52,588 bases of DNA from NCBI GenBank assembly GCA_016178305.1, contig JACOTM010000028.1:1-52588 (forward strand), written 5' to 3'. The notes beneath the pieces were generated by a model that was given only the letters and a program-made list of their open reading frames with translations, had not been told where the DNA came from and made no database searches. Source of the stretch: Flavobacteriia bacterium (lineage in GTDB: Bacteria > Bacteroidota > Bacteroidia > Flavobacteriales_D > Crocinitomicaceae). Below are positions 5,187 through 41,759 of this stretch, one piece after another. Within the stretch, counting starts at the first letter, position 1. Each line of letters opens with the position of its first letter. The position numbers and the translations under genes were made by a program.

Positions 5187-5187
5187 G
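5133..5187 (-). terminator. Original tRNA-Arg operon terminator, now orphaned
   Basis: Arms at 5133-5152 and 5168-5187 form a near-perfect stem (AACGGGAAACA with TGTTTCCCGTT at its core) with a 15-base loop. On the minus strand it is followed by a T run. It directly abuts the displaced tRNA 3' end (5187-5201), where a tRNA operon terminator belongs. Integration has moved it 36.6 kb from its operon. Confidence 0.65.
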
Positions 5188-5201
5188 TGATCCCGTTTGG
5201 A
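5187..5201. other. Left attachment core (att), displaced tRNA-Arg 3' end
   Basis: The 15 bases GTGATCCCGTTTGGA are identical to 41745-41759 and correspond to the acceptor and T-stem 3' end of tRNA-Arg on the minus strand. This copy has no tRNA body next to it, so it is the original 3' end separated by integration. Confidence 0.85.
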
Positions 5202-5397: not shown

Positions 5398-6708
5398 ATG
5401 AAATTAATTATAAATTATTCATTAAAAAGTGGAATTCAAGGTGAAATTCCCATAATTGCGACCCTAAATTTTGGTTATAAAGAGTTCGATGTTTTGAAAA
5501 ATGAGTTTATTTATAAACCCTTGAGATATTATATTGGACTTAAATTAAAAAAAGAAGAATGGGATGCTAAATCCAAAATTCCATATAACAAATCAAAGTA
5601 TGCTGAACTTCTAAAAATAGAAGAACAAATAATAAACACTTTTAAATATTTAGAACATAAAAAGGATTTAACTCCTGAAAATTTTAAATTGGAATTAGAT
5701 TCTAAAATAAAAGGCAAAGAAGATTCCAAAATAATCCAAAGATTAAGAATTGTTGACTTTATTAGAGAAGAAATAATAAAGACTAAAGCAATTAAATCAG
5801 AAAGTCTAAAACCGTATACTGGATTAGCGAACAAACTTGAAAAATTTGAAGAAAAAATAGGTAAATTGATTTATACAAACGACCTTAATGAAGAATTGTA
5901 TCTTCAATTTATAAATGAAGCAAAAAATCGACTAAGTAAAATAAATGGTGTTTGGGCAATTCAGAAGACATTCAAAGCAACTATAAATGAAATTAGCAGA
6001 AAATATAAAATTACAATTTTCAATCCAACAGTTGACTTAGCTCAAAAAGATAAGATTCAAGCTGTCTCAGTAGATGCTATATACTTAAACTTTCATCATA
6101 TTAATAGTATCATAAAATATAAGCCTGAAACTGAAAAATTAAAAAATACAAAATTAATACTCCTTACATTACTTTTTACAGGTTGTAGAGAATCGGATGT
6201 TTATAAAATAATACCTATTGAGGGTACAGATAAAAATGGAAATAAATTTTTATATGCTAGATATTTAAGTCAGAAAACAGACACAGAAATTGTAGTACCT
6301 ATTTTAAAACCGTTGGAAAATGCTCTAAAAGAAAATAAATTTCAACCTCCAAATCCAATAAGTCAACAAAAATTTAATGAATATGTAAAAGAATTAGTTG
6401 CACTAGCAAAATTAAAAGATGATGTAACGATTTCATTTGTGAATGCTCAAGGCAAAAAAGAGTTTCAAACAAAAAAGTTTTATGATTTCGTTACATCTCA
6501 TATAGGTAGGCGATCATTTGTAACTAATTTAATAAATTATGTGCCTATTACAATTCTTACTAAAATAACTGGACATACTTTAAAAGATAAAAGTATAATT
6601 TTTGGATATAATAAAATTTCACTAATAGATAATGCAATTCAATTTCGTAAAATATTAAAACAAGCATGTGATGAAAATAAAGATCACTTTGTTTTCAAAC
6701 TTGTATAA
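5398..6708 (+). CDS. Tyrosine-family site-specific recombinase (integrase)
   Basis: A 436-residue integrase. It has an N-terminal arm-binding-like region (about 1-105), a SAM-like core-binding domain (about 115-210) and a C-terminal catalytic domain. Catalytic residues are visible: Arg in TGCRESDV, His and Arg in HIGRRSF, His in TGHTLKD and the nucleophile Tyr in GYNKI. It sits 200 bp inside the left att core and points inward, typical for tRNA-targeting elements. It ends at a strong hairpin shared with the convergent HTH gene, a likely directionality factor. Full length with no defects seen. Confidence 0.92.
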   Translation: MKLIINYSLKSGIQGEIPIIATLNFGYKEFDVLKNEFIYKPLRYYIGLKLKKEEWDAKSKIPYNKSKYAELLKIEEQIINTFKYLEHKKDLTPENFKLELDSKIKGKEDSKIIQRLRIVDFIREEIIKTKAIKSESLKPYTGLANKLEKFEEKIGKLIYTNDLNEELYLQFINEAKNRLSKINGVWAIQKTFKATINEISRKYKITIFNPTVDLAQKDKIQAVSVDAIYLNFHHINSIIKYKPETEKLKNTKLILLTLLFTGCRESDVYKIIPIEGTDKNGNKFLYARYLSQKTDTEIVVPILKPLENALKENKFQPPNPISQQKFNEYVKELVALAKLKDDVTISFVNAQGKKEFQTKKFYDFVTSHIGRRSFVTNLINYVPITILTKITGHTLKDKSIIFGYNKISLIDNAIQFRKILKQACDENKDHFVFKLV

Positions 6709-7076: not shown

Positions 7077-8243
7077 TTAAGATTTAAAGTTAAAGGTTCT
7101 AACAGCTTGCTCGTAACCATGAGCGATACGTTTATTAATTAGGTTTTCATTTGCAACTAATGGACTTCCCAATTCAAATGAAAAAGCAGGATTTATTATT
7201 GTTGCTTCAAATGCTTTTATTGGGCGATTCAATGAATTTGTTAGAACAATTTTATTATCCACTAATTGAACTTGTTTTGCAATGTCATTGATCTGTAAGA
7301 AATGATTTATGTCATTTTGGAAAACTTCGGTTAGAGTTAATTCATAGATTGATCTAACTGCAATTGCTCCAATTGATTTATTTGAGAATGGTTCATAATT
7401 CGGTATTCCACTATTACAATTGATTGCTATAATTTGATAAGTACATTCATCTTCGTCCTCAGAAATCATTTTGATAACATCACCAAAAGGAGAAACGTTG
7501 ATGATTCCACCATCTACGTTATTGTGAGAGTTGATGAAATTTCGACCATCAAAAAATGAAATTTTATCTACGGGATTCCAAATAGCAGGAATTGAAGCTG
7601 ATGCCAAAACTCCGTTTATAAAATCTGTGTTAGACAAAAAGTTTTCATGTGAAACGCTATGATAAGCTCCTGTATTTAAAGAAACAAATCCACAAGAAAA
7701 CTTTGTGTTTTTAATTTTTGAACGGTTTAAATAGCTTGATAATTTAGTCGCTAATTGAGTATTATCAGCAATGCTTTTGAAGTTTTTTAAATTACTTTTT
7801 AAAGAATTTTCAAGTTCTTCAATAACTCTGTCAATAATCTCTTTGCGTTTTTTAGAAGAAAACAACATTCCAACTTTTTCAAATATCCCAATATTAAAAT
7901 CAAGGTTTAAATTCAAACGTTTGGCAAGCTGTTTAATATCAAGTTTAAATTTTAATTTATCTTCTTTAGATTTAGTATCAATGAATTCCGAACTGTAAAT
8001 TTCAGATGCCCCATTTTTACCGATTTGATTTACCCAAAGGTTATGGAGTAAATCAAATTCATTCATAGCTACCAATGAACCATTGATTGCTCCAGCACTT
8101 ACACCTGAAATGATGTCAAATTTCATGGGAGTATCAAGTCCAGTTATGTTTTTCCAGTTTTCACGAATGTATCTCAATGCTCCAACTTGGAAAGCACCGT
8201 TGAATCCTCCTCCTGAAAGAACTAATGCAAATTTCTTTTTCAT
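7077..8243 (-). CDS. Patatin-like phospholipase
   Basis: A 388-residue lipase of the patatin fold. The oxyanion-hole loop GGGFNG is at 11-16, the nucleophile elbow GVSAG at 47-51 (Ser49), ASIPAIWNPV near 216-225, and the Asp of the catalytic dyad in DGG at 244-246. I chose the ATG at 8243 because the glycine-rich loop must lie close to the N terminus. The upstream frame overlaps the previous gene. No signal peptide is seen, so it acts on inner-leaflet or cytoplasmic lipid. In this operon it could help membrane remodelling or cell lysis. Patatins also act as membrane-attacking defence effectors, but no sensor or cyclase is next to it. Confidence 0.88.
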   Translation of the reverse strand: MKKKFALVLSGGGFNGAFQVGALRYIRENWKNITGLDTPMKFDIISGVSAGAINGSLVAMNEFDLLHNLWVNQIGKNGASEIYSSEFIDTKSKEDKLKFKLDIKQLAKRLNLNLDFNIGIFEKVGMLFSSKKRKEIIDRVIEELENSLKSNLKNFKSIADNTQLATKLSSYLNRSKIKNTKFSCGFVSLNTGAYHSVSHENFLSNTDFINGVLASASIPAIWNPVDKISFFDGRNFINSHNNVDGGIINVSPFGDVIKMISEDEDECTYQIIAINCNSGIPNYEPFSNKSIGAIAVRSIYELTLTEVFQNDINHFLQINDIAKQVQLVDNKIVLTNSLNRPIKAFEATIINPAFSFELGSPLVANENLINKRIAHGYEQAVRTFNFKS

Positions 8244-8265
8244 GATTTTTTGATTTAGATGATTA

Positions 8266-9750
8266 TTAATTAAAAATGTCCATTTCTCCGCCTTGGTTGA
8301 ACCTACCAAATTGTACTGCTTTTCCTTTTTCAGGAACTTCAATAACAACATCAACATCGTGTTGGTAACCGTTTTCTCCTCTAAAATTTCCCTGCTTTGT
8401 TGTTTGAAAAATGTAAACAAATGAAATTTGAGGATTCGTAGCTTGTAAGTTTTCCAAATCGTCAGGGGTTAATCCTAACTTTGTTACACTATCTAAGAAA
8501 ACAAAATCCCATTGAGATAAATTATTTGGAATAGAACCTACAAATTGTAAATTTGGGTGTGCTACATTTGTGTCTTGCAACTTTTCTTTGATCGTGTCTC
8601 CGATTCTTTCTTCACGAGCAATATATAATACTTTACCATGATTTCTTGCTAAATATCCTGCAAAGTCAATGCACAAAGTTGATTTTCCAAATTTAGGTTT
8701 TCCAAAAACCATTGAAGTAAATCCTTTTGATGGATTACCGATAAACTCTTTCCATTTTCCAGTAAAATCAAGTTTGTCAAATTCCATATTTACAATATCT
8801 AAACTGTCTACAACCAAATGATCAGGAATTGAATTAAAACCGTTTAAACCTTCAAAACCCGAAACTATTCCTTCAAGTCCATTTAATTCCTTTGTTGGAA
8901 CTACTAAAATTCCTTCAGATGAATTCTTTTTCACAAACGATTTCAAGTTGGTAAGAAGTCCTTGTAATTCATTCCAGTAAGGATCTTTTTGAGTAATCAG
9001 TCCTATATTGATTGCTTTGGCAAGTCGATTATGAAGACTTGTTGCACGAACATTGCTAATCATTTTCCCTTGTAAACCAATGTAACTTTTTATAAATCGA
9101 ACAGAAAGCATCAATTCTTGTTTACCGATAATATTTAGTAAATGAGTTCTTTTTGTTTCTTCAATTTCAACTTTAAAAGATTCTAAACCTTTAGACTTTC
9201 CAAACAGAATCAATAAATTGTCTTGAATTTCTAATATCTCTTTTGAATATTTTGAAGTTTTACGAATACGCTTTTCAATCATTGCTCTTTGTAAAGAATT
9301 GATAAATGATCTGATTTGCGATCCATTTTTTATTTTTCCGTGCATCAAAACATAGCGTTTGATTAATCGAAGTTCTTCACTAATCCTTTCAACTTTTTCT
9401 CCATTATTTTTAAATACTCGAAATGGAGTTATTTTTGATTTTCGTAAACTTTCCGCCTTTTTTAAAGGTGGTTTAGATTGTGTATTTGAAGTTTTGTTAT
9501 GTACAATTACATTTGGTTGTGTTGGTTTGTGTGATGATATACTATTCAAATATGATGCTAATTGAATAAAGTATTGGTCAATTGTTCTTTTGATTTGAGT
9601 GTTTTCTGAATCGTTATAATCATCCCATGACTTACCATTTTCTGTAACTTCATCTACAAAATCAGCTACATCTTTTAAGGTTTTCGGTAGTGAATTACGA
9701 TCAATTTTACTTAGTTCTGAAAAGTAATTCTTGGTGGTTAATTGTGTCAT
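8266..9750 (-). CDS. RecA/RadA-fold ATPase with a long N-terminal extension
   Basis: A 494-residue protein. Residues 1-285 have no motif I recognise and are rich in charged helices. Residues 340-490 form a RecA-like ATPase with Walker A GKPKFGKST (350-358) and Walker B WDFVFLDSV (about 414-422). A RadA/Sms-like ending reads TTKQGNFRGENG and then HDVDVVIEV. A motif ELNGLEG with GFEGLNGF lies at 288-305 and recurs in the transglutaminase-like protein of the same operon. Its start overlaps the stop of the upstream giant gene (ATGA). It is not of the FtsK/HerA packaging type. It could be a DNA motor or repair ATPase of the element. Confidence 0.7.
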   Translation of the reverse strand: MTQLTTKNYFSELSKIDRNSLPKTLKDVADFVDEVTENGKSWDDYNDSENTQIKRTIDQYFIQLASYLNSISSHKPTQPNVIVHNKTSNTQSKPPLKKAESLRKSKITPFRVFKNNGEKVERISEELRLIKRYVLMHGKIKNGSQIRSFINSLQRAMIEKRIRKTSKYSKEILEIQDNLLILFGKSKGLESFKVEIEETKRTHLLNIIGKQELMLSVRFIKSYIGLQGKMISNVRATSLHNRLAKAINIGLITQKDPYWNELQGLLTNLKSFVKKNSSEGILVVPTKELNGLEGIVSGFEGLNGFNSIPDHLVVDSLDIVNMEFDKLDFTGKWKEFIGNPSKGFTSMVFGKPKFGKSTLCIDFAGYLARNHGKVLYIAREERIGDTIKEKLQDTNVAHPNLQFVGSIPNNLSQWDFVFLDSVTKLGLTPDDLENLQATNPQISFVYIFQTTKQGNFRGENGYQHDVDVVIEVPEKGKAVQFGRFNQGGEMDIFN

Positions 9751-12700
9751 GATGCTTTGTTTTTAAAGGATAATAACTCTAGTTCTAATTCAAGTGCTTT
9801 GGCTCTAAGTCTTAATCTTCTTGATCTATCTGTTGTTTGCTCTTCTTTACTTGGGAGCCTAATCTGAACTTTTGGTTTTACTGCTGATTGAACCAATCCA
9901 ACGGTTTCAATTTGTGATTCACTCATTTTTACTGAAACTCCAATTTGAGATTCAAGTATTGCTAATAATGGCTCAATATTACTTAACTGAACATAACTTG
10001 ACATATTTTTACCTACTTTTTCAAAATTGTTATTTTGAACTAACTTTAATATTTCGGGATTCAAAAATATTTCTCCTCCTTCTCTTATTACTCCATTTAT
10101 AACAATTCTAAAAGTGCCATCATGTAATTTGAAAAATGTTATTCCATGAGAGGTCACAATGTCTTTTCCATAAGGCAATGATTGAAAAACTTTTAAAGCT
10201 TTACTTATAGGAACATCTACCTTTCCACCAAACGCTTTTTCATACTGCCAATGTTCAGGCATAAGAATACCTTTTGTTATTTGGTTATCATGTGTTGTAT
10301 AGCTAACTAATTTCCCTTTATAATCTGAAAATGCTTGTAAGATATTACCAGTAATTATATACCGAATGGTTCTATCTTTTGTATTTTCAGAAATTGCTTC
10401 TCCCCACATACTTAGAGTGTTTTCAATATCAGATTCACGAACATATAGACTTGCTCCTTTAATTGCGTTTATCTCTTTATTGAAACTTGCAGGAATTTCT
10501 AAATACTTTTGTGATGAAGCAATAGCAAATCGTAATCCAATAGCACTTGGGGCATACGGATTTTTACGTTTAAAATCCAATTTAAAACCAACAAAAACCG
10601 CCATTTGATTGGTGTCTGTCCCCTCAAAAGAATCAATTGGATAAAGTAAACGTTTACCAATTGTAAAGTATTTAAATAAACCTTGTATGTTCGTTTTCTT
10701 ATATTCAGCAAGTTTATTTTCATCCTCAATTTTCTTATTTTTAGCAATGTTTAATTCCAATATCCTTTGCTCAATTGCTGAATCAACAAGTGTTGGTGTT
10801 TCCTTTTGAATTTTCTTTATTTTTTTCTCATTTGGAATATCCTTGATTAAAGATGAATAATGTTCATTTATCTCATTTAGTTCAGATTCTAAAATAGCAA
10901 CGTTATGTCCTAAATAAGTTTCAATTAGTTCGTTTGAAACCTCAATTGGAGTTTTTCCATTTAAGGATTGAATAATTAAGTTTCTCAATTCATCAATTTT
11001 AAAAGGTTTACGAAGAACGTTTGCTTCTACTTTCTCTAAAATTGAATCTTCTCCAAAAGATGAATACCCACCTTTGCCCATTTTGATAATGGAAGAAGAA
11101 ACTGTTTTAGTTTTCAAATCCATTTCCTCTACTTCTAAATCATACTCTCCAGTTTGCTTTAAATAGTTGATATGGTTATCGTATCGTTCTTTTATGTCGG
11201 TGTAAAATTCTTCCTGCATTTTAACTGATAAAACAGCCACACGACCTGAAACTTTTAATGCGCCGTCTTCTTTGATTTGTTCAGTACCTCCAATTTTTAA
11301 AGGATCGCCCAAAAGTGTATTTAATTCTCTGTTTTCTTTTAAGTATTCAATCACTATTGCATCTCCATATTTATTTAAAAAATCAGGCACATCCAATATG
11401 CTACTACTTTGTTTTTGATTCGATGAGGTATTCGCATCCAAAGATTTCAGTTTCTTTTGAAGCATCATCATTAAACGCATTTCGGCTGGAATTGCTGAAT
11501 TTACGTAATCATAAATCGGTTTTAAGATTTGTCCTGTTCGATTGATTCTACCGCGTTTTTGAACTTCGATATTAATATCTAATTCAGGTTGTAATACAAT
11601 CATTACTCGTTGTTTTACATCTTCTTTTTTTACTTTACTTGTAATGATTGCATGAGCCGAAGCACCAGTACTACCTGATTGATTTATTAGTAAAACATCT
11701 AATTCATTATTATTGAACTCACGAAAAGCATCATTTGTGTTTATCTTTTTACGGTTTTCTACAATTCCACGTGTTCTTTTTTCATTCAATTGTAATTTCA
11801 GTTTTCGTCCAGTAACTTCCCCAACAGAATATCCTGCTTTTTGAATACGACTTACTATTACATCAATTGGAGAAATTGTTATTCCAGTTGAAATACTGCT
11901 TATTTGCTCATGAATACGTAAATATTCAACTTTAGCTTCCGCTCCTAATTCATCAATATCGAAAACTTCATATTCTTTAGTTCCGTCAGGTAAAGTGATT
12001 GTATATCTCATAACACCTTCCAAACCTTTTTCAAGAACGATTGAAAAATCTGCTTTTACTTCTTCGCCTATGGAAACAGAAACTCCACTTTCATCTTCCA
12101 TTTGTTCTAAAAAACTTCCCATTGTGGAAGCGAAGGCGATGACAGGTTTTTTACCTTCTTTTAATCTTTCTATTGCACGATCTGCCACCGCTTCTGCTTT
12201 GATAGAAAACAACATTTGATTAATCACATTAAACACTTTTGAGAAGTAAGGCATATTGTCAACTCCTGCATTTGATGTTCCCTCACGGACTTCTATTTCT
12301 GCACCTTCTTCTGCAATTATTTCATCCAATTCGCCTACACGTTTATCCACATAATTTGCCTGAAATGCGATAATGTCACGCAAAATTAAAGTGATATTAT
12401 CCGCTATTGCTTTGTGTTCATTTGCTTTATCATGGAGTGTAATATAATTTACTTCAATTCCCTCGTAGCTTCTTTCTCGTCTTATCATTTGCCCCTCTGA
12501 AACAAGTTGTGATGCTAATACTTCTTGTAATGCTACACCGCCATTAGCGATAGCATCAACCAAATTTTGTTGTGACATGTTTGCTTCTGAAATGGATGTT
12601 TTCATACCATATATCGGCATATTATCGGGACGTTTTGCAAAGGTTGCTGATAAGAAAACAGCTCCCTTTGTTTTCTTCACAATACTTTGCATGAATGTTC

Positions 12701-14621
12701 CTGTATTTGACGATCCACTTGCATTATGACTTTCATCCATAATCAAAATGCTACCTTCGGCAATGTTTCTTAAGAAATTGGGTTTTGTGTTTTTCTTTTC
12801 AGGCGAGTTGAATTGAGAATATGTACCGATTACAAAATCATAGTTTTTTAACTCGCCAGTTTCAAATATGTGATTTTGTTCCATACTCGATGGTGCTTGA
12901 TAAACGACTAATCCGTTTTCATCTTTGATGTCTGTTTTACTCTCTTTTGAATTGACAATAAAAGGTCTTAAATGTGAAGAACCAATTGCATCCAAATCAC
13001 GATATAAATCAGAAAACAAGTTTGCTTTTTCAGTCAGGACAATTGGTTTTATACCTTGATGCACTGCATAGCGAATCATAGATGAAGCAATTCGACCTTT
13101 TCCAATTCCTGTTTGATCTCCAATAATCATTGCTTGGTTCAATGCTTCAATGTTGTAAATTGCCATTCCAACTGCATCAATTTGTTCTGCTGATAAAACA
13201 TTATACATTGAAGCTTTTGTTGGATAACCTAATCGATCACGAACAAAATTATCCATGTCTCCACCAACATCGCGTGTTATTTGTTTTAAAGCTTGATGAA
13301 TCTCGAAGTCCATTGAATCGGGTACTTGAGTATCTAAAACCTTTCCCTTTGATGATGGAATATAAGCACCTTCCAATGTTCCTAAATCAGAATTAGAATT
13401 CAAAAATTTTTCTAACTCTTTCGCTCTTTTGATTAGATAATTTGATTTGGATGTATCTTGACTATCTATAATTTGTGAATTTACCCTAGCGAATAATTCA
13501 TCGAATGAACTTACAACTTTTGATAAAGTATCATTTTTAAGAGGTGCAACACCTGAAGGAATTTTTTTTCTTCCATTGATTAGAACAACTCTTGTATCAA
13601 AAGTTGTTCCTTGACGAGAATACAATTTGTCTCCTTTTATTGGGATAACATCATCGACGTTATAATGAGAGTATATGTAATTGAAAAAGATTCTGTTTTT
13701 TCCTGCTTGAATTCGACCTTGATTGTCATAATCTGTATGACCTCCAATGATAAATGCACATTTACCATTGTCTTTCATAGTTTCTAAAGCTATGATTGCC
13801 ATATAATGATCCAAATCGTAAATTCGGTAAGTTCCAATATATGTCGGGTCTCCAATTCTACCAAAAGGCGGATTTGTGATTACTGCATCAAAACGTCTTT
13901 CAAAATCCTTGAAAGGTCTTGAAGCATCAACTCCAGTTACAGAAATGTAGTTTTGACGTTTTAAATTTTCACGTCTTACTTTATCAATTTCATTGACAAT
14001 TACTTTATTTGGATTACATGCTATGGTTAATAATCCATTGCCTGCTGATGGTTCAAAAACTATTTTTCGATTCGTTTCAATTCCACAATACAAACCCATT
14101 AAATAACCAATAGGGGCAGGTGTAGAATATTGCTTTAACAAAATACTTTGAGAAGTACGAAATGATAAATTGGTTTGACGGTTATACAATTCAACAATTT
14201 TATTGAATTTCGATTTTTTATCATCCCTGCTGTCATTTGCAATTGAGCGTGCTGTTTCAACGATCGCATATTCCGTTAATTCTTTGACTTTTGTTTTGTC
14301 AACTATTCCCATAGAATGTGCAATCCTTTCAGTATGAAGTCTTGATAATTTATCTCCATTTGATAGACTATCAATCATAAATCGAATATATCTATCTTCA
14401 TTTTGAACCTGTTTCATGACACTTGCTTTTGAGGGTTTTGTTTGGAAATTGATTTGATTTTTTAGAAACTCATTTTCATTTTGTAATTCTTTAATGAGTT
14501 CTTTTTGAGGTTCATTTTCTGTTATTCCACGAAGTACGCTGTGATAGAACCCTAAACTGCCGATAAAACCGATTACCGACAGTAAAAAAGAGTACTTCGC
14601 ATAAGGAATTGGCTTACTCAT
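9747..14621 (-). CDS. Giant DarB-like DNA methylase-helicase fusion (strawberry-notch type) with N-terminal membrane span
   Basis: About 1624 residues. A single hydrophobic span (about residues 10-32) comes first. Next is an N6-type methyltransferase domain with motif I FEPSAGNG (about 189-196) and motif IV NPPFG (about 250). It is followed by a superfamily 2 helicase of the strawberry-notch class with Walker A DQTGIGKGR (about 502), DESH (about 630), SATF (about 658) and motif VI QKRGRINRTGQ. The layout matches phage P1 DarB, a virion protein that shields injected DNA from type I restriction, and similar plasmid proteins. The start at 14621 overlaps the previous stop by 8 bp. The N-terminal span is unusual and suggests a membrane- or virion-anchored form. 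Confidence 0.82.
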   Translation of the reverse strand: MSKPIPYAKYSFLLSVIGFIGSLGFYHSVLRGITENEPQKELIKELQNENEFLKNQINFQTKPSKASVMKQVQNEDRYIRFMIDSLSNGDKLSRLHTERIAHSMGIVDKTKVKELTEYAIVETARSIANDSRDDKKSKFNKIVELYNRQTNLSFRTSQSILLKQYSTPAPIGYLMGLYCGIETNRKIVFEPSAGNGLLTIACNPNKVIVNEIDKVRRENLKRQNYISVTGVDASRPFKDFERRFDAVITNPPFGRIGDPTYIGTYRIYDLDHYMAIIALETMKDNGKCAFIIGGHTDYDNQGRIQAGKNRIFFNYIYSHYNVDDVIPIKGDKLYSRQGTTFDTRVVLINGRKKIPSGVAPLKNDTLSKVVSSFDELFARVNSQIIDSQDTSKSNYLIKRAKELEKFLNSNSDLGTLEGAYIPSSKGKVLDTQVPDSMDFEIHQALKQITRDVGGDMDNFVRDRLGYPTKASMYNVLSAEQIDAVGMAIYNIEALNQAMIIGDQTGIGKGRIASSMIRYAVHQGIKPIVLTEKANLFSDLYRDLDAIGSSHLRPFIVNSKESKTDIKDENGLVVYQAPSSMEQNHIFETGELKNYDFVIGTYSQFNSPEKKNTKPNFLRNIAEGSILIMDESHNASGSSNTGTFMQSIVKKTKGAVFLSATFAKRPDNMPIYGMKTSISEANMSQQNLVDAIANGGVALQEVLASQLVSEGQMIRRERSYEGIEVNYITLHDKANEHKAIADNITLILRDIIAFQANYVDKRVGELDEIIAEEGAEIEVREGTSNAGVDNMPYFSKVFNVINQMLFSIKAEAVADRAIERLKEGKKPVIAFASTMGSFLEQMEDESGVSVSIGEEVKADFSIVLEKGLEGVMRYTITLPDGTKEYEVFDIDELGAEAKVEYLRIHEQISSISTGITISPIDVIVSRIQKAGYSVGEVTGRKLKLQLNEKRTRGIVENRKKINTNDAFREFNNNELDVLLINQSGSTGASAHAIITSKVKKEDVKQRVMIVLQPELDINIEVQKRGRINRTGQILKPIYDYVNSAIPAEMRLMMMLQKKLKSLDANTSSNQKQSSSILDVPDFLNKYGDAIVIEYLKENRELNTLLGDPLKIGGTEQIKEDGALKVSGRVAVLSVKMQEEFYTDIKERYDNHINYLKQTGEYDLEVEEMDLKTKTVSSSIIKMGKGGYSSFGEDSILEKVEANVLRKPFKIDELRNLIIQSLNGKTPIEVSNELIETYLGHNVAILESELNEINEHYSSLIKDIPNEKKIKKIQKETPTLVDSAIEQRILELNIAKNKKIEDENKLAEYKKTNIQGLFKYFTIGKRLLYPIDSFEGTDTNQMAVFVGFKLDFKRKNPYAPSAIGLRFAIASSQKYLEIPASFNKEINAIKGASLYVRESDIENTLSMWGEAISENTKDRTIRYIITGNILQAFSDYKGKLVSYTTHDNQITKGILMPEHWQYEKAFGGKVDVPISKALKVFQSLPYGKDIVTSHGITFFKLHDGTFRIVINGVIREGGEIFLNPEILKLVQNNNFEKVGKNMSSYVQLSNIEPLLAILESQIGVSVKMSESQIETVGLVQSAVKPKVQIRLPSKEEQTTDRSRRLRLRAKALELELELLSFKNKAS

Positions 14622-15294
14622 TATCAGTTGCAATTAAATAACAACCTCCTAACAACAATGCAATTAAAATCCCTGAAATTGCAATAGTTTTTAATTCTTG
14701 TCGACTTTCCATTCTCTCATCAACCAAAGTATAAGTGAATTTATTTCCATGAAAGGAACGATGTACTTCACATAATTTCATAAAGAAATCAAAGTCACTT
14801 GCACTTTTAAATACTTGGCATCCTGCTGAATATTTATCAACAACAAGTGTAGAACCTATTTGAGATGCTCGATGGATGTTGATACCGAAAAAACCACTTG
14901 CAACTTTTCCATTATTGAAATCAAGCACTGCATCTCTATCATAATCACGAGTTACATTTACTTTTCCACCTGTTTGTATCAAGGCTTTATATTTTCCTCG
15001 GTGTAATCCAATTTGATATGTGTCAATGTATTGACTTGGATTTAAAATTGCTGTTCCCTGTGCATTCATTGGATTTTTCAACCAAAAAGTACCAGGATCT
15101 GTGGTACATTTAAAAACCATGTATAACCATTTGGGACGACCCGATTGAGCAATGTTTGTAAATACGTGCATTTCGTCATCAAATGCATTTGGAGTTTGGC
15201 TATTTGCTCTAAATCCCCAAATGTTTAGGCGGTAAGGTTCTTCGTAAATTACGTAACCTTTCTTTTGAGCTAGTTTTGAAATTTCTTGGATCAT
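14614..15294 (-). CDS. L,D-transpeptidase-like cell-wall protein with a C-terminal membrane anchor
   Basis: A 226-residue protein. FGINIHRAS (His141) and KYSAGCQVF (Ser156, Cys159) give the H...SxGC pattern of YkuD-type L,D-transpeptidases and related peptidoglycan enzymes, although the usual Arg after the Cys is replaced. A single C-terminal hydrophobic span (about 203-221) anchors it, with few residues beyond. No signal peptide is present. It overlaps the preceding gene by ATGA and the next by 8 bp, so it is translationally coupled. In a virus-like operon it could open the cell wall during entry. The assignment rests on the short motif alone. Confidence 0.6.
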   Translation of the reverse strand: MIQEISKLAQKKGYVIYEEPYRLNIWGFRANSQTPNAFDDEMHVFTNIAQSGRPKWLYMVFKCTTDPGTFWLKNPMNAQGTAILNPSQYIDTYQIGLHRGKYKALIQTGGKVNVTRDYDRDAVLDFNNGKVASGFFGINIHRASQIGSTLVVDKYSAGCQVFKSASDFDFFMKLCEVHRSFHGNKFTYTLVDERMESRQELKTIAISGILIALLLGGCYLIATDNE

Positions 15295-16232
15295 GATACG
15301 TGTTTTATTGATTTAGTGTTTACAAAAAGGAATCTTCCGTCTACTGTTTCAAATTCCGTTATTCCATTACTATCAGTTGAGTATGTACCTAGAATTGTAA
15401 ATTGAGGAACGATTAATGACTTACCAACTCTATCCCATACTTTTGTAGAAACAGTTGTCATCAAACGATCTTCGAGACCATACACTCCTGAAAGTGACCA
15501 TTTAGAACCATCATATTTTAATCCGATTCTATAAAATTCAGCGTTGATTTTTTTCTTGTATTCCATCGATGTAAACCTTGAAAGCAAAGCATTTACAACT
15601 GTATTACTAACTAATGCAAATTCAATCTTTTTAAATTCTTCATTCAAATAGATGTACTGCTCTTTGTTTTTTATCTTTTTTAATATGGATAGAGCAGTAA
15701 AAATGTTGTCTTCGATAACAGAATCATGAAGCGTTTTTGCAAGTGCTTTATAATTGTTTTGATCTGTATTTTTAGTTTCAGACTTTGGTTTATCATTACC
15801 ATTTTTAGAATCTGATGTTACTATTTTACCGTATTCTTTGGAATCAATTGTAGTTGGTAATCCTTTTGATTTCAAAGCTGTTTCCATTTCCTGACCATAG
15901 AATCCGTCCGCACCATATTTAGGTAAAATTGAACCTCCGTATTTTTTGATAAGTGCTAATTGCACATCTTTTACAAGTGTTCCTTTACTTTTTCTTTTCA
16001 AAGGAAAAGTTGAGTTTTGAGGTGCAGGTTTATATCCACTCGGTTTAGAACTTGATGCAGGTAAACTATTTTGATCTGATGAAGGTTGAAAATCTGAATC
16101 AATTTGATCTACAAAATCTTCAACTGCTGAATCCTCTTTTTTGCTTTGTATATGTTTAAACAGGAAATACCCACCTGTACCTACTGCGATTGCACCTAGC
16201 GACCAGAGTAAATATTTTGTTTTGGTTTCCAT
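15291..16232 (-). CDS. Membrane-anchored peptidoglycan-binding protein with an annexin-like helical region
   Basis: A 313-residue protein with an N-terminal membrane span (about 7-26) and a low-complexity Ser/Pro linker. A PG_binding_1-like domain at about 74-130 shows PLKRKSKGTLVKDVQLAL and then GADGFYGQEMETAL. A helical segment (about 150-215) resembles the annexin-like repeats of the next upstream protein. A C-terminal beta region (about 260-313) is perhaps SH3-like. The start overlaps nothing and lies 8 bp after the 253-aa gene. Together with the neighbour at 14614 it forms a cell-wall-contacting pair. Confidence 0.65.
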   Translation of the reverse strand: METKTKYLLWSLGAIAVGTGGYFLFKHIQSKKEDSAVEDFVDQIDSDFQPSSDQNSLPASSSKPSGYKPAPQNSTFPLKRKSKGTLVKDVQLALIKKYGGSILPKYGADGFYGQEMETALKSKGLPTTIDSKEYGKIVTSDSKNGNDKPKSETKNTDQNNYKALAKTLHDSVIEDNIFTALSILKKIKNKEQYIYLNEEFKKIEFALVSNTVVNALLSRFTSMEYKKKINAEFYRIGLKYDGSKWSLSGVYGLEDRLMTTVSTKVWDRVGKSLIVPQFTILGTYSTDSNGITEFETVDGRFLFVNTKSIKHVS

Positions 16233-16240: not shown

Positions 16241-17002
16241 TTATTTTTTAGGTTTCTTTTTTAATAATGCTCTCCAATCAAGTGACCAATCTAAATCGCC
16301 ATCTAAATCATCCCATAGATGTACTGAATACATTTTATTATAGGAATTAGCCGTTGCCCAAAAGGCTTTTTGTGTTGGTATCTCTTGAAAAACTGCTACT
16401 ATTGCATCTTCATCCGTTCCTGACATAAAACCCAACCATGAATAATCTAAAGCAGAATGAAATCGTTTTGCCCAACCCACAGGATCATAAATTTTCAAAG
16501 TTTGAGTCCCATTTGATTTTGATGGTTTAGCGTTTTTAATCGCTAACATTTCTTGGTATTCCAACTTGGTCAATTCATCTGACATTTCTTCGATCAAACT
16601 TGCCCCTTTGTACATTTTTCGATACGATTGCTCTACACTGTAAAAGTCTTCTTTGGATGGAATAGCACGCATTGTTTGTCTTACAAGTGGCACGTCTGTT
16701 CCCCACCAACCATCATTTTCAAAAGCTTGTCGAAATTGCTTTGCCCATGTTGCGTGGTTGTCTTTTCCAAATGATTTGGATTGTTCTTTTTTGGCGTTTA
16801 TTTCTTGAACTTTCCTTTTTGCAAAATAAAAAGCTGTGATTGCTATTATTGAAACTCCTAGAGTAATGGACAGCGAAGTAACAAATCTTCGCTGTCCATC
16901 TGTTAAAGAATTCCACCAACTTCTTTGTTTGGTATCAATTATTATACTGGTTGGAGCGACTTTGTAAGTTTTCTTTTTAGGTGTGTTACTGACGCTTTCC
17001 AT
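16241..17002 (-). CDS. Membrane-anchored protein with two annexin-like repeats
   Basis: A 253-residue protein with one membrane span (about 40-61) and two tandem repeats of about 70 residues (84-148 and 175-247). Each has WAK(Q/R)F, W(G/L)G or GTDED, IP(S/T) and SY.KMY. The second reads GTDEDAIVAVFQEIPT and later SYNKMY, close to the annexin repeat form GTDE...Y...L..DL. Annexin repeats bind membranes, usually with calcium, and whether the ligands are present here cannot be settled by eye. Function in this operon is unknown. It may contact a membrane or wall. Confidence 0.6.
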   Translation of the reverse strand: MESVSNTPKKKTYKVAPTSIIIDTKQRSWWNSLTDGQRRFVTSLSITLGVSIIAITAFYFAKRKVQEINAKKEQSKSFGKDNHATWAKQFRQAFENDGWWGTDVPLVRQTMRAIPSKEDFYSVEQSYRKMYKGASLIEEMSDELTKLEYQEMLAIKNAKPSKSNGTQTLKIYDPVGWAKRFHSALDYSWLGFMSGTDEDAIVAVFQEIPTQKAFWATANSYNKMYSVHLWDDLDGDLDWSLDWRALLKKKPKK

Positions 17003-17029: not shown

Positions 17030-17212
17030 CTAATCAACGCCTAGAAACTTCTTGGCGAGTGCTACTTTTGCAGGATCAGTTTTTACAACTTTTGCTAATG
17101 CTGTAAGTGTTTGAGCTGATAAGTAAGTTGCTAATTCTGCTACTGCTTTTGCCTTTTCGGTTGCTTCTTTTTGAGTTCCCGAAATGGAAATATTGAATTT
17201 ATACTTTTCCAT
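17030..17212 (-). CDS. Small conserved-looking protein, 60 aa
   Basis: A short protein with one beta segment (KYKFNISISG) followed by two Ala/Lys-rich helices ending KFLGVD. The ATG at 17212 gives a compact start. The longer open frame runs back through the end of the previous gene. It overlaps the upstream coiled-coil gene by 14 bp, which supports cotranslation. There is no membrane span. Abundant small structural proteins of viruses often look like this, but that is only a possibility. Confidence 0.55.
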   Translation of the reverse strand: MEKYKFNISISGTQKEATEKAKAVAELATYLSAQTLTALAKVVKTDPAKVALAKKFLGVD

Positions 17213-17942
17213 TTTGATTGATTTTTTGATTAACAATTGAATAAAAATCTTGTCGGAGTTCAGGATATTTGGCAAATACCTCCCATGTTTTAATAGCACT
17301 TTCCAATTTTTCTTCTCCGTATTGCTCTTTTAGTTCTTGATAGAATTTGTCAGTTTCTGAAAGTTCAGCTTCAATTTCAACTTCTGCTTGGGGAATACCA
17401 TGTATAGGGTTTGCAGGTGCTTTTGAATTAAACTGTCCATATAATTGCATTCCTTGGGAAAGTAATTCTTTGACATCAACTTGTTTGTCCCCTAATTGAT
17501 CTTCTGCATCTTGTAATTTGCGTTTTAGCTTTTTTACTTTTTTTCTAAGTGTAATAACTTCCGTTTCTAAACTTTGTCTTTCAAGAGCTGATGAAATTCG
17601 TCCCTCAACATCTTCTGATTTGTTTTTGATTCCATCTAATGAAGCTTCTTTTAAATGGAAAATGTATCTGTTTGAATTGGGAGAATCTCCAAAATATAAT
17701 CTCACTTCAACATTTTCAGTATGTGGTTCGATGTAATCTAAATATTCATCAAAGTTGGTTGGATCATTTGTACAGGCTACGATTAATTCTCCATCAACTG
17801 ATATTGAGTATCTTTTTTTTCTTCCTTGTTCGTAAAAATTAGAAACTAGTCTTTTAATTGCATCTAATCGTTCTTTTGAATAACTTTCGTTAAAGACTTT
17901 ACCACCATTTCCACGTGCTTTTGTTTTTCCAAAATCTTCCAT
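17199..17942 (-). CDS. Coiled-coil protein of unknown function
   Basis: A 247-residue soluble protein. The N-terminal 110 residues are mixed alpha/beta. A long heptad-rich coiled coil (about 118-155, ETEVITLRKKVKKLKRKL as core) follows, then an acidic helical C terminus. No enzyme motif is seen. Its position between beta-rich candidate capsid proteins and the membrane-anchored group suggests a scaffold or spike-linked role, but this is inference. It is 11 bp from the upstream gene. Confidence 0.55.
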   Translation of the reverse strand: MEDFGKTKARGNGGKVFNESYSKERLDAIKRLVSNFYEQGRKKRYSISVDGELIVACTNDPTNFDEYLDYIEPHTENVEVRLYFGDSPNSNRYIFHLKEASLDGIKNKSEDVEGRISSALERQSLETEVITLRKKVKKLKRKLQDAEDQLGDKQVDVKELLSQGMQLYGQFNSKAPANPIHGIPQAEVEIEAELSETDKFYQELKEQYGEEKLESAIKTWEVFAKYPELRQDFYSIVNQKINQNGKV

Positions 17943-17953
17943 GATTAGTTGTA

Positions 17954-18274
17954 TTATTTAATTTTTGGTATTACCTGTAAAAGCTTAACATGTACAGGTA
18001 GTTTTTGATTCAAGTTTTGAATGGTAATTGTTCCCGAATAAACATACTGCATCTCACTAATTCCTTTATCTGTCAGATCGAATGCTCCAGTTTTAGAAAC
18101 TACTCGAATGTTTTCGTCAGGTAAGAGTAAAATCAAAATATCATTTGGTGCTTTTACTATTCTTGATTCGTCAGGGATTAAAACAAGGTGTCTGAATCTC
18201 AACAAATAATTTTCGCCAACTTCCAATTCTAACATTTTCTTTTTGGCTATTTCTATGGCTAGACCATCTGTCAT
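17954..18274 (-). CDS. Small beta-rich protein, possible virion component
   Basis: A 106-residue protein made largely of alternating hydrophobic beta strands (ENYLLRFRHLVLIP, DILILLLPDENIRVV, VYSGTITIQNL, PVHVKLLQVIP). No signal peptide or membrane span is present. It overlaps the upstream gene by ATGA. It is the fourth of four adjacent beta-rich genes (19497-20216, 18972-19370, 18271-18969 and this one), which would suit capsid and vertex proteins. Confidence 0.5.
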   Translation of the reverse strand: MTDGLAIEIAKKKMLELEVGENYLLRFRHLVLIPDESRIVKAPNDILILLLPDENIRVVSKTGAFDLTDKGISEMQYVYSGTITIQNLNQKLPVHVKLLQVIPKIK

Positions 18275-18969
18275 AATTCAAGATTTAGATAAATATTAAT
18301 TTGATAGCCATTAGTTAAATCCTTTAAAAGATTTGAATAAAATCCCTCTATGATTGTAGATGTTGGATCAATATCAATTGAAAAAAAAGATTCTTTACTT
18401 CCATTGATCCATTCTTTGCCCTTACCAAAATCAGGAAGAACATTCATAGCTCTATTGAAACCAGCCAATCCATATTGATGTGTTGGCATTTTCACAACTT
18501 CACTAAATAACACATCTCTTCTTTCAGGAATTCTAAGCCAAAGTGAACCCATTTCTTGTTCAGCAATTTCAAGCATTATTAATCTGACTGTTACATTTGA
18601 TTTGGAATTGTTTCTTTCAATACTTGCTAGATATTCTTTATACTTTTCAAGTAAAACTTTCTTTTCTTGTTGAAGTTTAGCAATCAATTCTTTGTTATTA
18701 ATTACATAAGCTTCTTCCAATTTCTTATCAATTTGAGTAATCAATAACTTGTAATTATTGTCTTCCAAATTGTTTTGAGAAATTTTCTTGTAATATTCAT
18801 CCTCAATTGTATTGTTTCGTTTCAAAAGTTCTTCTTGCTCTAAACTGTAACCATTTGTCGTGATTTTGATTGATTTCACACGTTTTGTATTGCGAGGGAG
18901 CTTGATTTGAAACATTACTTTTTCAATTCCTGACTTAATTTGAATGCTATGAATCAATGTTTTTTTCAT
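18271..18969 (-). CDS. Beta-rich protein with an inserted coiled coil, possible minor capsid or spike protein
   Basis: A 232-residue protein. Residues 1-40 and about 125-232 are beta-rich, opening with EKVMFQIKLPRNTKRVKSI and ending YQINIYLNLEL. Residues 41-118 are a charged coiled-coil insertion. Beta sandwiches that carry a coiled-coil insertion are typical of spike or vertex proteins. It starts 2 bp after the 132-aa gene and overlaps the next by ATGA. No sequence family is recognised. Confidence 0.5.
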   Translation of the reverse strand: MKKTLIHSIQIKSGIEKVMFQIKLPRNTKRVKSIKITTNGYSLEQEELLKRNNTIEDEYYKKISQNNLEDNNYKLLITQIDKKLEEAYVINNKELIAKLQQEKKVLLEKYKEYLASIERNNSKSNVTVRLIMLEIAEQEMGSLWLRIPERRDVLFSEVVKMPTHQYGLAGFNRAMNVLPDFGKGKEWINGSKESFFSIDIDPTSTIIEGFYSNLLKDLTNGYQINIYLNLEL

Positions 18970-18971
18970 GA

Positions 18972-19370
18972 CTAATATTCTGAATTTGTTTCAATGACTG
19001 AGAATGTATAAATCGTTACTCTGTAAGGCACGAACTTGATTAATTCATGTGCTTTATCTGTGTAAGCAATTTCTATTTTTCCGTTTCCAGTACCTAATTC
19101 GCCTAGAGTAATCAATCGATTATCAGGTGCGACATTTAAACCCGACATCAACAATTTACTTTCAAAACCTTCAGGAAATAATTCCATATCATTCAAAAGA
19201 ATTTTTTGACTTCCTCTGTAAAACATCAAATCATCACGAGAAGAGGTTAAAGCAATTCCAATTAAATAATTTGCATTTTTATCCAATTCAAATTCCTGTT
19301 TAAATGTTTGGTTTTCGGCTGTTATCTGAACATCGAACCGTTCTTTGATAAGATTGTGTTTGTAACTCAT
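18972..19370 (-). CDS. Small beta-sandwich-like protein, possible minor capsid protein
   Basis: A 132-residue protein consisting mainly of predicted beta strands (FDVQITAENQTFKQEFEL, YLIGIALTS, GKIEIAYTD, YRVTIYTFSVI) with the loop LFPEGFESKLL. No signal or membrane span is present. It is the first gene after a strong hairpin (19444-19484) that separates it from the candidate major capsid gene. The strand pattern and place in the operon fit a jelly-roll-type virion protein, but no match is recognised. Confidence 0.5.
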   Translation of the reverse strand: MSYKHNLIKERFDVQITAENQTFKQEFELDKNANYLIGIALTSSRDDLMFYRGSQKILLNDMELFPEGFESKLLMSGLNVAPDNRLITLGELGTGNGKIEIAYTDKAHELIKFVPYRVTIYTFSVIETNSEY

Positions 19371-19496: not shown

Positions 19497-20216
19497 TTAA
19501 GGTGTTGTTACTGTTCCTACTAATCCAACGTACAACCATTGATTTTCAGGAATTTTAAATTGTGTTCCCAATTCAATTGTAAATTCAATCAACTCGTCAT
19601 CGTTTACCAATCTTGGATTATCTAAAGGATAATACCCCATAGGTAACATATTATTGTTGTCAGTTGCAAAACATCTGATTGCTTGATTTTCAGGAATCAA
19701 TTGTTTACGATTTGCTTTGAATGAAAACTCCCCATTGCAAATTGCATTAACAGTTGATACGCTTTCAAATTTGATTGCTTTTCTAGCTTCTGTGTTATTC
19801 ACGTCAGGGTTTTCGCCAGTCAATAGAAAGATTCCACTTACTACCATTACCATATTCTTTGGCAATTTCGCATTTGAAATATTTCTAACTCCAACTTCTT
19901 TGTCATCTTGTGGCTCAAACATTTTAATTGTTTTTGAATTAATTGGTTTGATTGAATAAATGATGTAATCTGAAAGTCGAAGATTTCCTTTTCCTAATTC
20001 ATCTTTGATATGATTTGGTAATACTCCGAAGTGTTTTTCCATATCACGTCTTGATCCTCTCGATACTTGAACTTGCCCTTGTTGAGCAATCTTTTTTACA
20101 ATTTGTGCTTTTTCTATTGGAGATGCACTATGCGCAATTCTTGAAAGTTTTACTGCATCTAATCCGTACAATTCTCCTGCGTTATTGTACTCTGAATTTA
20201 AAAATTCTCCTAACAT
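19497..20216 (-). CDS. Candidate major capsid protein of a tailless virion (unknown family)
   Basis: A 239-residue protein. The N-terminal 85 residues are helical and basic (VSRGSRRDMEKHF). Residues about 86-239 are a string of beta strands with short loops (SDYIIYSIKPI, MVMVVSGIFLLTG, GEFSFKANRK, DELIEFTIELG, QWLYVGLVGTV). No enzyme motif, signal or membrane span is present. It stands apart from the tightly overlapping genes, with its own leader hairpin and a following hairpin, the layout often used for a highly expressed capsid gene. The capsid role is inference from layout and strand content. I do not recognise the sequence. Confidence 0.5.
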   Translation of the reverse strand: MLGEFLNSEYNNAGELYGLDAVKLSRIAHSASPIEKAQIVKKIAQQGQVQVSRGSRRDMEKHFGVLPNHIKDELGKGNLRLSDYIIYSIKPINSKTIKMFEPQDDKEVGVRNISNAKLPKNMVMVVSGIFLLTGENPDVNNTEARKAIKFESVSTVNAICNGEFSFKANRKQLIPENQAIRCFATDNNNMLPMGYYPLDNPRLVNDDELIEFTIELGTQFKIPENQWLYVGLVGTVTTP

Positions 20217-20311: not shown

Positions 20312-20974
20312 TCACATTTTTGAGAAGTCAGGTTCGTCGTCAATGATTGAGTATGCAAAACTTGGTGCTGAACTCAATTCTTCATTGTCATCGTCATAAT
20401 CTGAATATCCTGCAATAGCATTTTGACTTTCAAATTCATCTGCTTCTTGACGGTTGAAGTTTTCAAAAAAATCAAGTGCTGATACATCGATTGCTCCAAC
20501 TGATCCATCTGCATTTGTTGAACTCTCTACCGTACTTGCTGAATCCCCACCTTTGAAGATTTTATCCAAATAGTAAGTTGCTAAAACTTCATCTTTGAAT
20601 TGTGTCAACCTTGTTTTGGCTTTTGATGATTCTCCTGCTAATGTGAAGCCATTTACCGATGTTGCGATTTGTTCATTTTCAAAGTGTTTTGCAATTCCAT
20701 AAGCAATTGCACTTGCTCCTGCAACTCTTAAAACTCCAGATCTGTCTCCAAAGTAATGACCAAGACCTATCATTCCTAAACCAAACCATTTCGCTTGTTT
20801 TCCTGAAACCGCTCCGATTCCTGCTCCAACTGTTGCACCTAGTACAACATCAACAAGGGTTTTTAGTCCTGCATTTGAAAAACTTCCTTTGGTTTCTTTG
20901 GCGTTATAGGCATCTATGAAGTTTTTTCCTTTGGTTTTTAATTTATGCCCTGAACCTTTATTTTTCTTTGTCAT
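20312..20974 (-). CDS. Glycine-zipper membrane protein with acidic C terminus
   Basis: A 220-residue protein. A basic N terminus (TKKNKGSGHKLKTKGKNF) is followed by Gly/Ala-rich hydrophobic segments (about 38-62 and 68-95, with VVLGATVGAGIGAVSG and LGMIGLGHYFG) typical of glycine-zipper membrane or membrane-active proteins. The last 90 residues are polar and acidic. It could be an internal-membrane protein of a virion. No family is recognised. It lies 18 bp downstream of the transglutaminase-like gene. Confidence 0.55.
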   Translation of the reverse strand: MTKKNKGSGHKLKTKGKNFIDAYNAKETKGSFSNAGLKTLVDVVLGATVGAGIGAVSGKQAKWFGLGMIGLGHYFGDRSGVLRVAGASAIAYGIAKHFENEQIATSVNGFTLAGESSKAKTRLTQFKDEVLATYYLDKIFKGGDSASTVESSTNADGSVGAIDVSALDFFENFNRQEADEFESQNAIAGYSDYDDDNEELSSAPSFAYSIIDDEPDFSKM

Positions 20975-20992
20975 GATTACTGATTTAACTGT

Positions 20993-22807: not shown

Positions 22808-23310
22808 ACTTTTATAGTTGAAATCTGTTCGTAAGGAAAACTTCCTACTAAGGTGTAAACTCGACAATTCGTTGCAACTTTAATAGTCGTTTTACCCCCA
22901 GTATCAGGATTTTGAAAGCGAGCAATTAAATCAGGTGCAATTGTTGCAAGTCCAATCCAAGGGATCATAACTTCTGTCTGAATATCACCCGTTTCATTGT
23001 TAGCACGGATCACGATTTTTCCACTATCATCTCTCGATTCTTCGGGAATATCGATTTGTTGCATACTACTTGTTGCAACCTGTTTACCATTTACTGTAAT
23101 AGTGATTAAAGGTGCAGTCATTCTCATAGTGGATCCTGTGGGATTTTTGATGTTGTACTTTATATATAAAGTAACTCCCTGTGCCGAGATTTTGTGAACT
23201 TTACCTGATACTACAATGGTAATCTTGTATTGTGCTTGATTTATTTTATACAGGTAACTACCTGTTAAAAACAATGCACCTCCGATGGCTATAACTGTGA
23301 ATGCTTTCAT
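22804..23310 (-). CDS. Membrane-anchored LEA/WHy-like beta-sandwich protein
   Basis: A 168-residue protein with one N-terminal span (about 3-22), followed by a beta domain with GVTLYIKYNIKNPTG, PLITITVNGKQV and QQIDIPEE. This is the look of the LEA14/WHy family: a strand-rich domain on a membrane stem whose key feature is a NPT or NPS turn. No lipobox or catalytic motif is seen. It is coupled by ATGA to the transglutaminase-like gene. A membrane-surface virion protein is plausible. Confidence 0.6.
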   Translation of the reverse strand: MKAFTVIAIGGALFLTGSYLYKINQAQYKITIVVSGKVHKISAQGVTLYIKYNIKNPTGSTMRMTAPLITITVNGKQVATSSMQQIDIPEESRDDSGKIVIRANNETGDIQTEVMIPWIGLATIAPDLIARFQNPDTGGKTTIKVATNCRVYTLVGSFPYEQISTIKV

Positions 23311-23328: not shown

Positions 23329-23505
23329 TTAAAGAGCATTTCTGTTACCTCTAAATCGTGTGTTGATTTTGTTTGAAATGTTTCTCACTTTTTCGTCAAG
23401 GCGAGTTACCTTTTTAGACATGTCTTTGAAGTCTGTATGAAAGTCTTTTATGAAATAAACACAAACTGCTACTAGGATGCTATTGACAATTAATAATGTT
23501 TCCAT
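23329..23505 (-). CDS. Small single-span membrane protein, 58 aa
   Basis: Starts at the ATG at 23505 (METLLIVN). The upstream in-frame ATG at 23559 would lie inside the promoter and repeat region. A hydrophobic span (about 3-19) is followed by a short amphipathic helix with KKVTRLDEKVRN and a basic end. This is the size and layout of small virion membrane proteins or holin-like proteins. It is the first gene of the presumed late operon. Confidence 0.5.
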   Translation of the reverse strand: METLLIVNSILVAVCVYFIKDFHTDFKDMSKKVTRLDEKVRNISNKINTRFRGNRNAL

Positions 23506-23539
23506 GATATTGATTTTAAGTTGTTTTGAATTGTTGATA

Positions 23540-23640
23540 CAAAGTTCCAACTGTTTCAATTATCGCTTTTCCATTTATTCCTATTAGTTCCTTTTTATTC
23601 CCTTTTATTCCGCTTTTTTCTAAATTATTCCCTCTTTTTT
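23540..23640 (-). promoter_or_regulatory. Probable late promoter with helically phased 10-bp repeat array
   Basis: Six to seven consecutive 10-bp units (23571-23640), each ending in (A/T)TTC on the plus strand (for example CCATTTATTC, CTTTTTATTC, CCTTTTATTC), lie exactly in phase with the helix. Downstream on the minus strand, GAACTTTG (23540-23547) is one base off the TAnnTTTG box, and no -33 TTG is present. The layout suits a promoter that needs an activator bound along one DNA face, with a start near 23534 and the small membrane-protein gene following. Confidence 0.5.
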
Positions 23641-23643
23641 GGA

Positions 23644-23958: not shown

Positions 23959-23969
23959 GATGTTGATTT

Positions 23970-30503: not shown

Positions 30504-30506
30504 CTT

Positions 30507-31013: not shown

Positions 31014-31014
31014 A

Positions 31015-41744: not shown

Positions 41745-41759
41745 GTGATCCCGTTTGGA
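41745..41759. other. Right attachment core (att) within tRNA-Arg
   Basis: GTGATCCCGTTTGGA is identical to 5187-5201. It forms the 3' acceptor strand and part of the T stem of the intact tRNA-Arg, so integration rebuilds a complete tRNA. Confidence 0.85.

Follow-up and report, generated by a model that had tools for sequence, protein, structure and literature searches.

Which role could a large methylase-helicase protein serve for a virus-like element integrated in the genome of a Flavobacteriia bacterium? The question is raised by the open reading frame (ORF) at positions 9747-14621 of contig JACOTM010000028.1 (GCA_016178305.1; Crocinitomicaceae), of which a stretch of 52,588 nt, called the window below, was analysed as a whole. 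An original prediction, made from the sequence alone, had described the product as a DarB-like protector of incoming DNA with an added N-terminal span, lying in a virion-like operon of an element that also carries an hsdRMS locus. We consider it reasonably probable that the ORF product serves an integrated virus of Bacteroidota, probably membrane-containing and without a tail, as its counter-restriction enzyme; counter-restriction is still the best reading, being supported by the other methyltransferases that replace the enzyme in relatives. The clue given by the membrane span had to be corrected, as it is attractive but specific to one lineage.

The methylase-helicase protein and its slot

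Positions 9747-14621 form a single open frame, as predicted, and its strand could be fixed as minus (1624 aa from the ATG at 14621), the plus-strand frame across the same positions being riddled with stops. The protein is laid out as an N-terminal membrane span, an HsdM-like adenine methyltransferase and then a Strawberry-notch SWI2/SNF2 helicase. Both Strawberry-notch domains of Pfam are matched above their cut-offs (AAA_34, 1.1e-19, 70.9 bits for a cut-off of 27; Helicase_C_4, 9.2e-20, 71.9 bits for a cut-off of 30.5) and are preceded by a methylase with NPP(F/Y), the combination by which we recognise a Strawberry-notch dyad; the role of the NPPF-type motif in the methylase is described in PMC5512222. 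A scan against NCBIfam gave no match at 0.001, and the PADLOC match to mad2 (9.5e-6) was taken as methylase likeness only.

Using AlphaFold2 and an alignment of 30 rows, we modelled residues 69-1200 with a mean pLDDT of 84.1 and a pTM of 0.62. The first part of the model (about 18-322) matches BsaXI (8w2q; Z 16.6, 228 residues, 3.1 Å) and the type I methylase subunit HsdM (3lkd; Z 16.4, 228 residues, 3.9 Å), and the helicase part (378-1071 of the model) matches ZorD (Z 18.4, 436 residues, 4.0 Å) as well as SWI2/SNF2 motors such as INO80 and ISW1. Because the NPPF and SAT motifs and the key Walker A and DExH residues are invariant in all 30 rows (alignment A4) and both folds are matched, the methylase and helicase engines both look intact, as far as alignment and model can tell.

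The strongest evidence for a role in self-protection comes from the exchange of unlike DNA methylases in one slot, which we define as the stretch between the small gene TM65 (see below) and the gene of a RadA-like ATPase. The slot is readable in 24 related host elements (their loci are given as L numbers); where TM65 is undetected (L077, L078) the stretch ahead of the ATPase was taken, and elements in which no slot is visible (L079, L080, L085, L086 and the split G124 contigs) are not counted. This dyad occupies 17 of the slots (window, L019, L020, L022, L023, L025, L027, L028, L030, L031, L032, L070-L074 and L078; the gene is truncated by the contig end in L032, L072 and L074), five hold other DNA methyltransferases and two hold nothing. 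The five comprise a methylase domain 29% like that of the window, fused to a cytosine methylase (L033), a cytosine methylase (L067 and, by reading only, L075), a cytosine methylase plus N6 methylase and, in addition, an ORF for an SNF2 helicase (L076) and a D12 adenine methylase (L077). The RadA-like ATPase could be seen in 19 elements out of 24; in the other five (L027, L032, L072, L074, L075) the contig stops before it. These slot contents support a counter-restriction role on comparative grounds.

Beyond the 24 elements, the dyad is also found in L177 and in the IMG/VR contigs L089 and L090, both of which hold the candidate capsid gene g239 as well. Two distant loci (L081 and L083, g239 about 33%) encode an N6 methylase and an SNF2 helicase in two ORFs of their own, separated by RadC (detected with an HMM in L083 and with tblastn in L081; the HMM scans did not cover L082 and L084), and have directly upstream of the slot a protein with a span and heptads, as judged by reading. 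Counting the window's own genome each time, g239 is present in 26 of 399 genomes of the order, and the enzyme in nine of 240 genomes of the family at E<=1e-30 and in three of 395 genomes of the phylum at 1e-100. A 2161-aa relative (L004:9521-16006) was seen to have RadC and MutS domain I (MutS_I) ahead of the helicase.

The TM65 gene and the membrane span

The added N-terminal span of the original prediction is real as a hydrophobic stretch (Table 1), but about the first 60 residues of the window protein match a separate small upstream gene in relatives. Among 21 loci with a TM65-type ORF, 15 also show the methylase-helicase, in a different ORF in every case (15/15; near-copies among them are L019/L020, L023/L073/L074, L028/L031 and L070/L071), and the other six (L033, L067, L068, L069, L075, L076) have TM65 without this dyad. 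That the span belongs to the protector as such is therefore not supported, and it can be rejected as a conserved feature of DarB. At the limits used, TM65 was undetected beside the enzyme in L002/L078, L003, L004, L089, L090 and L177-L179. On the small span protein of L027, L030, L031, L032 and L075, an N-terminal cysteine-rich, zinc-ribbon-like part was noticed by reading.

From the ATG of the small gene to the KLSR motif there are 270 nt in the window and 289 nt in L023, so that the frames of TM65 and the enzyme are joined by a difference of 19 nt, and the stop region between them has diverged from that of relatives. In the window copy the TM65 gene thus runs into the enzyme frame and the joint product may be tethered; membrane tethering would be, at best, lineage-specific. 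A RadC domain precedes the methylase in nine of the 15 relatives (L019, L020, L025, L027, L030, L032, L070, L071, L072; called by HMM in L020, by tblastn or reading in the others) and is lacking in six. Since the RadC-less rows are interspersed among RadC rows in our tree (which leaves out 13 viral loci and L031, L033, L074, L171-L173 and L177-L179), RadC was probably lost more than once, to judge from these sequences, and its loss may have given rise to the TM65 fusion.

The topology of TM65 is uncertain from its residues: the N-side flank has the more positive net charge in 21 of 22 sequences (L067 ties), and by count of lysine and arginine it leads in 15, ties in four and trails in three, the window being one of the three. 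If the family were N-in/C-out, the fused enzyme would come to lie on a periplasm-like side, a place where one expects no ATP and no S-adenosylmethionine; such a placement would argue for additional translation from an inner start (e.g. Met69) or for a location inside the particle.

The element, its operon and its probable cargo

The window probably contains one integrated, att-flanked element of about 36.6 kb (Table 1), which comprises the operon at 6754-24170, hsdR, hsdS and hsdM, the candidate pair PDC-M04A/B and the PD-T7-1-like protein. One copy of a 15-bp repeat adjoins the integrase and the other lies at the exact 3' end of tRNA-Arg. By itself such a word could be chance in AT-rich DNA, as one 16-mer and several 14-mers also repeat; it was kept as att because it covers the exact tRNA end and adjoins the integrase. 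Integrase and probable att repeats are thus both present, the repeat being 15 bp long and the insertion site rearranged. Weak support for the site comes from L020, where the operon adjoins the same tRNA-Arg-Pro-Ser cluster, though in reverse orientation; no integrase was recognised there in 16000-20000, and the exact 15-base word is absent. Among genus relatives, sirB1 was found in six, with dnaE adjacent in five (the sixth stretch, L202, is too short), and a clean empty site was not obtained from them, the left side of the window being rearranged. The gene order in G014 (sirB1, dnaE, sucC, map, tRNA-Ser) indicates that the block dnaE-sucC-map-tRNA is inverted in the window.

Several side observations concern integration. 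In this arrangement of the window (4640-5187 and 41745-51118), inverted against G014, the element sits between sirB1 and tRNA-Arg, and partial att-like copies, GTGATTTCAATGAGAAA and GTGATCCCAATGAGAAA, lie near 4658 and 5038. Large serine recombinases seem, by reading, to take the place of the tyrosine integrase in L024:1035-2693, L067:1840-3561 and L177:0-1763, and L069 retains a related tyrosine integrase (42%). Five single genomes (G008, G045, G061, G107, G264) carry two elements of this provirus family.

Table 1. Features of the integrated element in the window, in order of position
Feature	Position	Strand	Basis
Probable att copy, GTGATCCCGTTTGGA	5187..5201	.	15-bp repeat
Tyrosine integrase	5398..6708	+	phrog_1 1.5e-14
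Patatin-like phospholipase, from ATG 8243 (frame open to TTG 8420)	7077..8243	-	PF01734 6.3e-25
RecA/RadA-like ATPase closing the slot	8266..9750	-	phrog_6891 4e-22; RadA/Sms 6e-5, far under cut-off
Methyltransferase-Strawberry-notch helicase, aa 69-1624	9747..14417	-	Pfam; 51-66% identity to 11 relatives (A2); model
Helicase DESH box, aa 629-632	12726..12737	-	D, E, H invariant in A4
Helicase Walker A GDQTGIGKGR, aa 501-510	13092..13121	-	D, T, three G, K, R invariant in A4
Methylase motif NPPF, aa 250-253	13863..13874	-	invariant in 30/30 rows
TM65 part, single span and coiled-coil-like stretch, aa 1-68	14418..14621	-	separate gene in relatives
Hydrophobic 19-mer, aa 12-30	14532..14588	-	mean Kyte-Doolittle (KD) 1.73
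Endolysin-like, C-terminal hydrophobic stretch	14614..15294	-	phrog_3000 4.5e-29, phrog_33083 2.6e-11; KD 2.43
Endolysin-like protein	15291..16232	-	phrog_1493 1.8e-7
Operon protein with hydrophobic stretch	16241..17002	-	KD 2.02; synteny
Five conserved operon genes (17030-17299, 17199-17942, 17954-18274, 18271-18969, 18972-19370)	17030..19370	-	synteny
Candidate capsid protein g239, jelly-roll-like	19497..20216	-	weak model; viral jelly-roll PDB matches
Three operon genes with hydrophobic stretches; 20993-22867 weakly transglutaminase-like	20312..23310	-	family scan; hydropathy
Three small genes, operon head	23329..24170	-	synteny
hsdR	27459..30302	-	TIGR00348 484.3 bits, cut-off 284.55
Candidate defence pair PDC-M04B/PDC-M04A, nested between hsdR and hsdS	30507..31695	-	PADLOC
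hsdS	31714..32868	-	PADLOC Specificity_I 4.4e-81
hsdM	33391..34983	-	TIGR00497 443.2 bits, cut-off 242.75
Probable att copy, last 15 bases of tRNA-Arg(TCT)	41745..41759	.	15-bp repeat

The predicted location in a virion-like operon is borne out by the virion-like, membrane-rich genes found there. Upstream of the enzyme lie 15 genes (24170 down to 14614) whose order is kept in relatives that belong to several families of the order, apart from a few genes that went undetected in the more distant ones; the RadA-like ATPase and, in some relatives, the patatin continue the same order. A 19-residue stretch with a mean hydropathy of at least 1.6 is present in five of the 15 operon proteins, and those scanned gave no match to portal, terminase or tail families; a "major head protein" PHROG was matched once, by 16241-17002 (E 0.0094). 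The model of g239 is poor (pLDDT 53.4), and the PDB entries that it matches best are jelly-roll capsid proteins of viruses (EhV-201 3.7e-5, SPV1 1.1e-3, FLiP penton 2.5e-3, cowpea chlorotic mottle virus and brome mosaic virus); the viral library gave a mixed list that includes several capsid proteins, and a search of PDB sequences gave matches to designed proteins (0.57 and 0.98) and no capsid identity. On gene content and these models, the provirus is likely to be tailless and membrane-containing.

An hsdRMS locus in the same element had also been predicted. It was found within 27459-34983, at 12.8 kb from the methylase-helicase ORF instead of the 10 kb first given, and appears to be a type I restriction-modification gene set in one locus. 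Among the relatives compared, complete hsdRMS was seen in the window only, and it looks like cargo and not like a fixed part of the provirus family. Upstream of the operon, matches resembling hsdM were also seen in L072 and, together with an hsdS-like gene, in L184 (G241), with a short one in L023 and a distant one in L029; L035, near L023, carries a CBASS-type cyclase and other defence-like genes. A second gene of the N6_Mtase family lies elsewhere in the genome of the window (C105). Beside the type I locus we observed a PD-T7-1-like defence protein (37215-38591; 1.2e-166) and, by reading, a GHKL/MORC-looking ATPase gene on the plus strand (35234-37166), split in overlapping frames (35234-35656 and 35541-37166).

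Competing explanations and known systems

We infer that the HsdM-like methyltransferase and its Strawberry-notch motor would move along the viral double-stranded DNA, methylating it, and that the methylated DNA would be spared by type I or other restriction enzymes of the host. The enzyme would most likely be made late and find its viral DNA substrate inside the producing cell, close to the membrane of particle formation; delivery together with the DNA, in the manner of P1 DarB, is possible. Several points weigh against this explanation: the Eco57I methylase match of the window protein, taken alone, lies below its Pfam cut-off (4.4e-4; 20.8 against 25.3 bits); two slots (L068, L069) are without any methylase; no PHROG, Pfam or PDB sequence match names g239 a capsid, and its model is poor; the papers compared here report neither methylation nor protection for any Strawberry-notch dyad; and the nearby RadC and RadA-like ATPase would fit DNA repair or replication as well. 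An enzyme that remodels recombination or replication intermediates with these two partners, methylation being secondary, would be in keeping with the RadC domain fused in nine of the 15 relatives, with the ATPase that follows in 19 of 24 elements (the other five ended by the contig) and with the MutS_I domain inside the same ORF in L004, but NPPF is invariant and five of the 24 slots hold a lone Dcm or Dam (L067, L075, L077) or nothing (L068, L069), so that we regard this as quite unlikely.

That the enzyme is packaged, enters a new host and shields unmodified DNA in cis, like P1 DarB, is conceivable, if rather doubtful. The relatives with large ORFs (>2500 aa) belong to the polyvalent type, for which transfer during infection has been proposed (PMC5512222), the homologue in Bacteroides phage BS-TP4 (5392 aa) lies directly before the portal gene, capsid targeting of P1 DarB (PMC9024508) and a JC1 protein in particles (PMC9144972) are described, and the TM65 fusion could serve as a targeting tag; however, the plain Dcm or Dam in the same slot of some relatives suggests action in the producing cell, and a PRD1-like vesicle would offer a 1,600-residue enzyme no obvious entry. 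It is a long shot that the enzyme, joined to TM65, is an anchored virion component, built into an internal membrane, that lies with the DNA or at its exit and methylates it on leaving the particle, the family keeping a modular anti-restriction cassette beside a docking membrane protein. The single ORF could also be an assembly or sequencing error, the window really holding two genes, as one fused case stands against 15 separate ones and the contig of the nearest relative (L085) stops before the junction, so that no close copy confirms the fusion. We think this unlikely, since the 19-nt difference from L023 and the diverged stop region mean that more than one base differs, even if an 18-nt difference combined with a single base error could give the same frame.

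Compared with known systems, our preferred reading of a counter-restriction enzyme has a parallel in P1 DarB (AF234172, 10469-17236), which likewise unites an N6-methylase and a following SF2 motor in a single large protein, which guards DNA from type I enzymes (PMC5512222, PMC9024508), EcoK and EcoB among them, and which is a head protein whose N-terminal 30 residues direct capsid targeting (PMC9024508). The likeness claimed by the original prediction holds for this layout and not for descent: the motor of DarB is of the SNF2-rel_dom/Helicase_C type (PF00176/PF00271) whereas that of the window is AAA_34/Helicase_C_4, BLASTP aligned the two in the methylase core only (27% over 106 residues, E=0.035), and the window protein matches three phage records at 1e-5, none of them P1. 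The different helicase subfamily and the lack of full-length homology exclude orthology; moreover, P1 is a tailed phage whereas the element of the window is probably tailless. The DarB-like protein of JC1 (gp69), detected in particles by mass spectrometry (PMC9144972), is a parallel and not a demonstrated relative, as JC1 is absent from the same three records.

The pairing of a methylase with Strawberry notch has already been described among polyvalent proteins (Iyer et al. 2017; PMC5512222), whose dyads likewise join an EcoKI/TaqI-like methylase to a Strawberry-notch SWI2/SNF2 motor and among whose domains RadC and SMS/RadA are also found; the provirus family of the window differs by shorter or separate ORFs in one operon slot. 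Searching viral contigs with profile A2 we obtained 214 relatives, and in 63 of the best 80, which were kept, the core lies in an ORF of more than 2500 aa; P0001 alone gave no match in viral_contigs. The closest phage record, that of BS-TP4 (XPO95421.1; 35% identity over 89% of the window protein), has its core embedded in such a protein, unlike the window. The fold of the methylase part is common to HsdM of type I systems and BsaXI (models compared above), from which the window enzyme differs by its fusion to a Strawberry-notch motor and by having no specificity subunit directly adjoining.

FLiP, PM2, PRD1 and their kin resemble the operon in their hydrophobic stretches, candidate jelly-roll capsid and endolysin-like and phospholipase genes, whereas none of the libraries searched gave a sequence match of g239 to any named family of capsid proteins. 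Tailless viruses were already known to carry methyltransferase genes, as a figure legend lists a DNA methyltransferase for PM2-like gut viruses (PMC9502842); our literature search, with subscription papers and preprints outside its scope, found neither a methylase-helicase slot in membrane-containing tailless phages nor a description of this slot or provirus family. Tailed phages provide the best-known cases of counter-restriction; here a single position of a likely particle operon, in a probably tailless and membrane-rich provirus family, is refilled with unlike DNA-modifying enzymes, in an element that may also bring its own restriction system, and this family of slots lets one ask which host barrier selects which enzyme.

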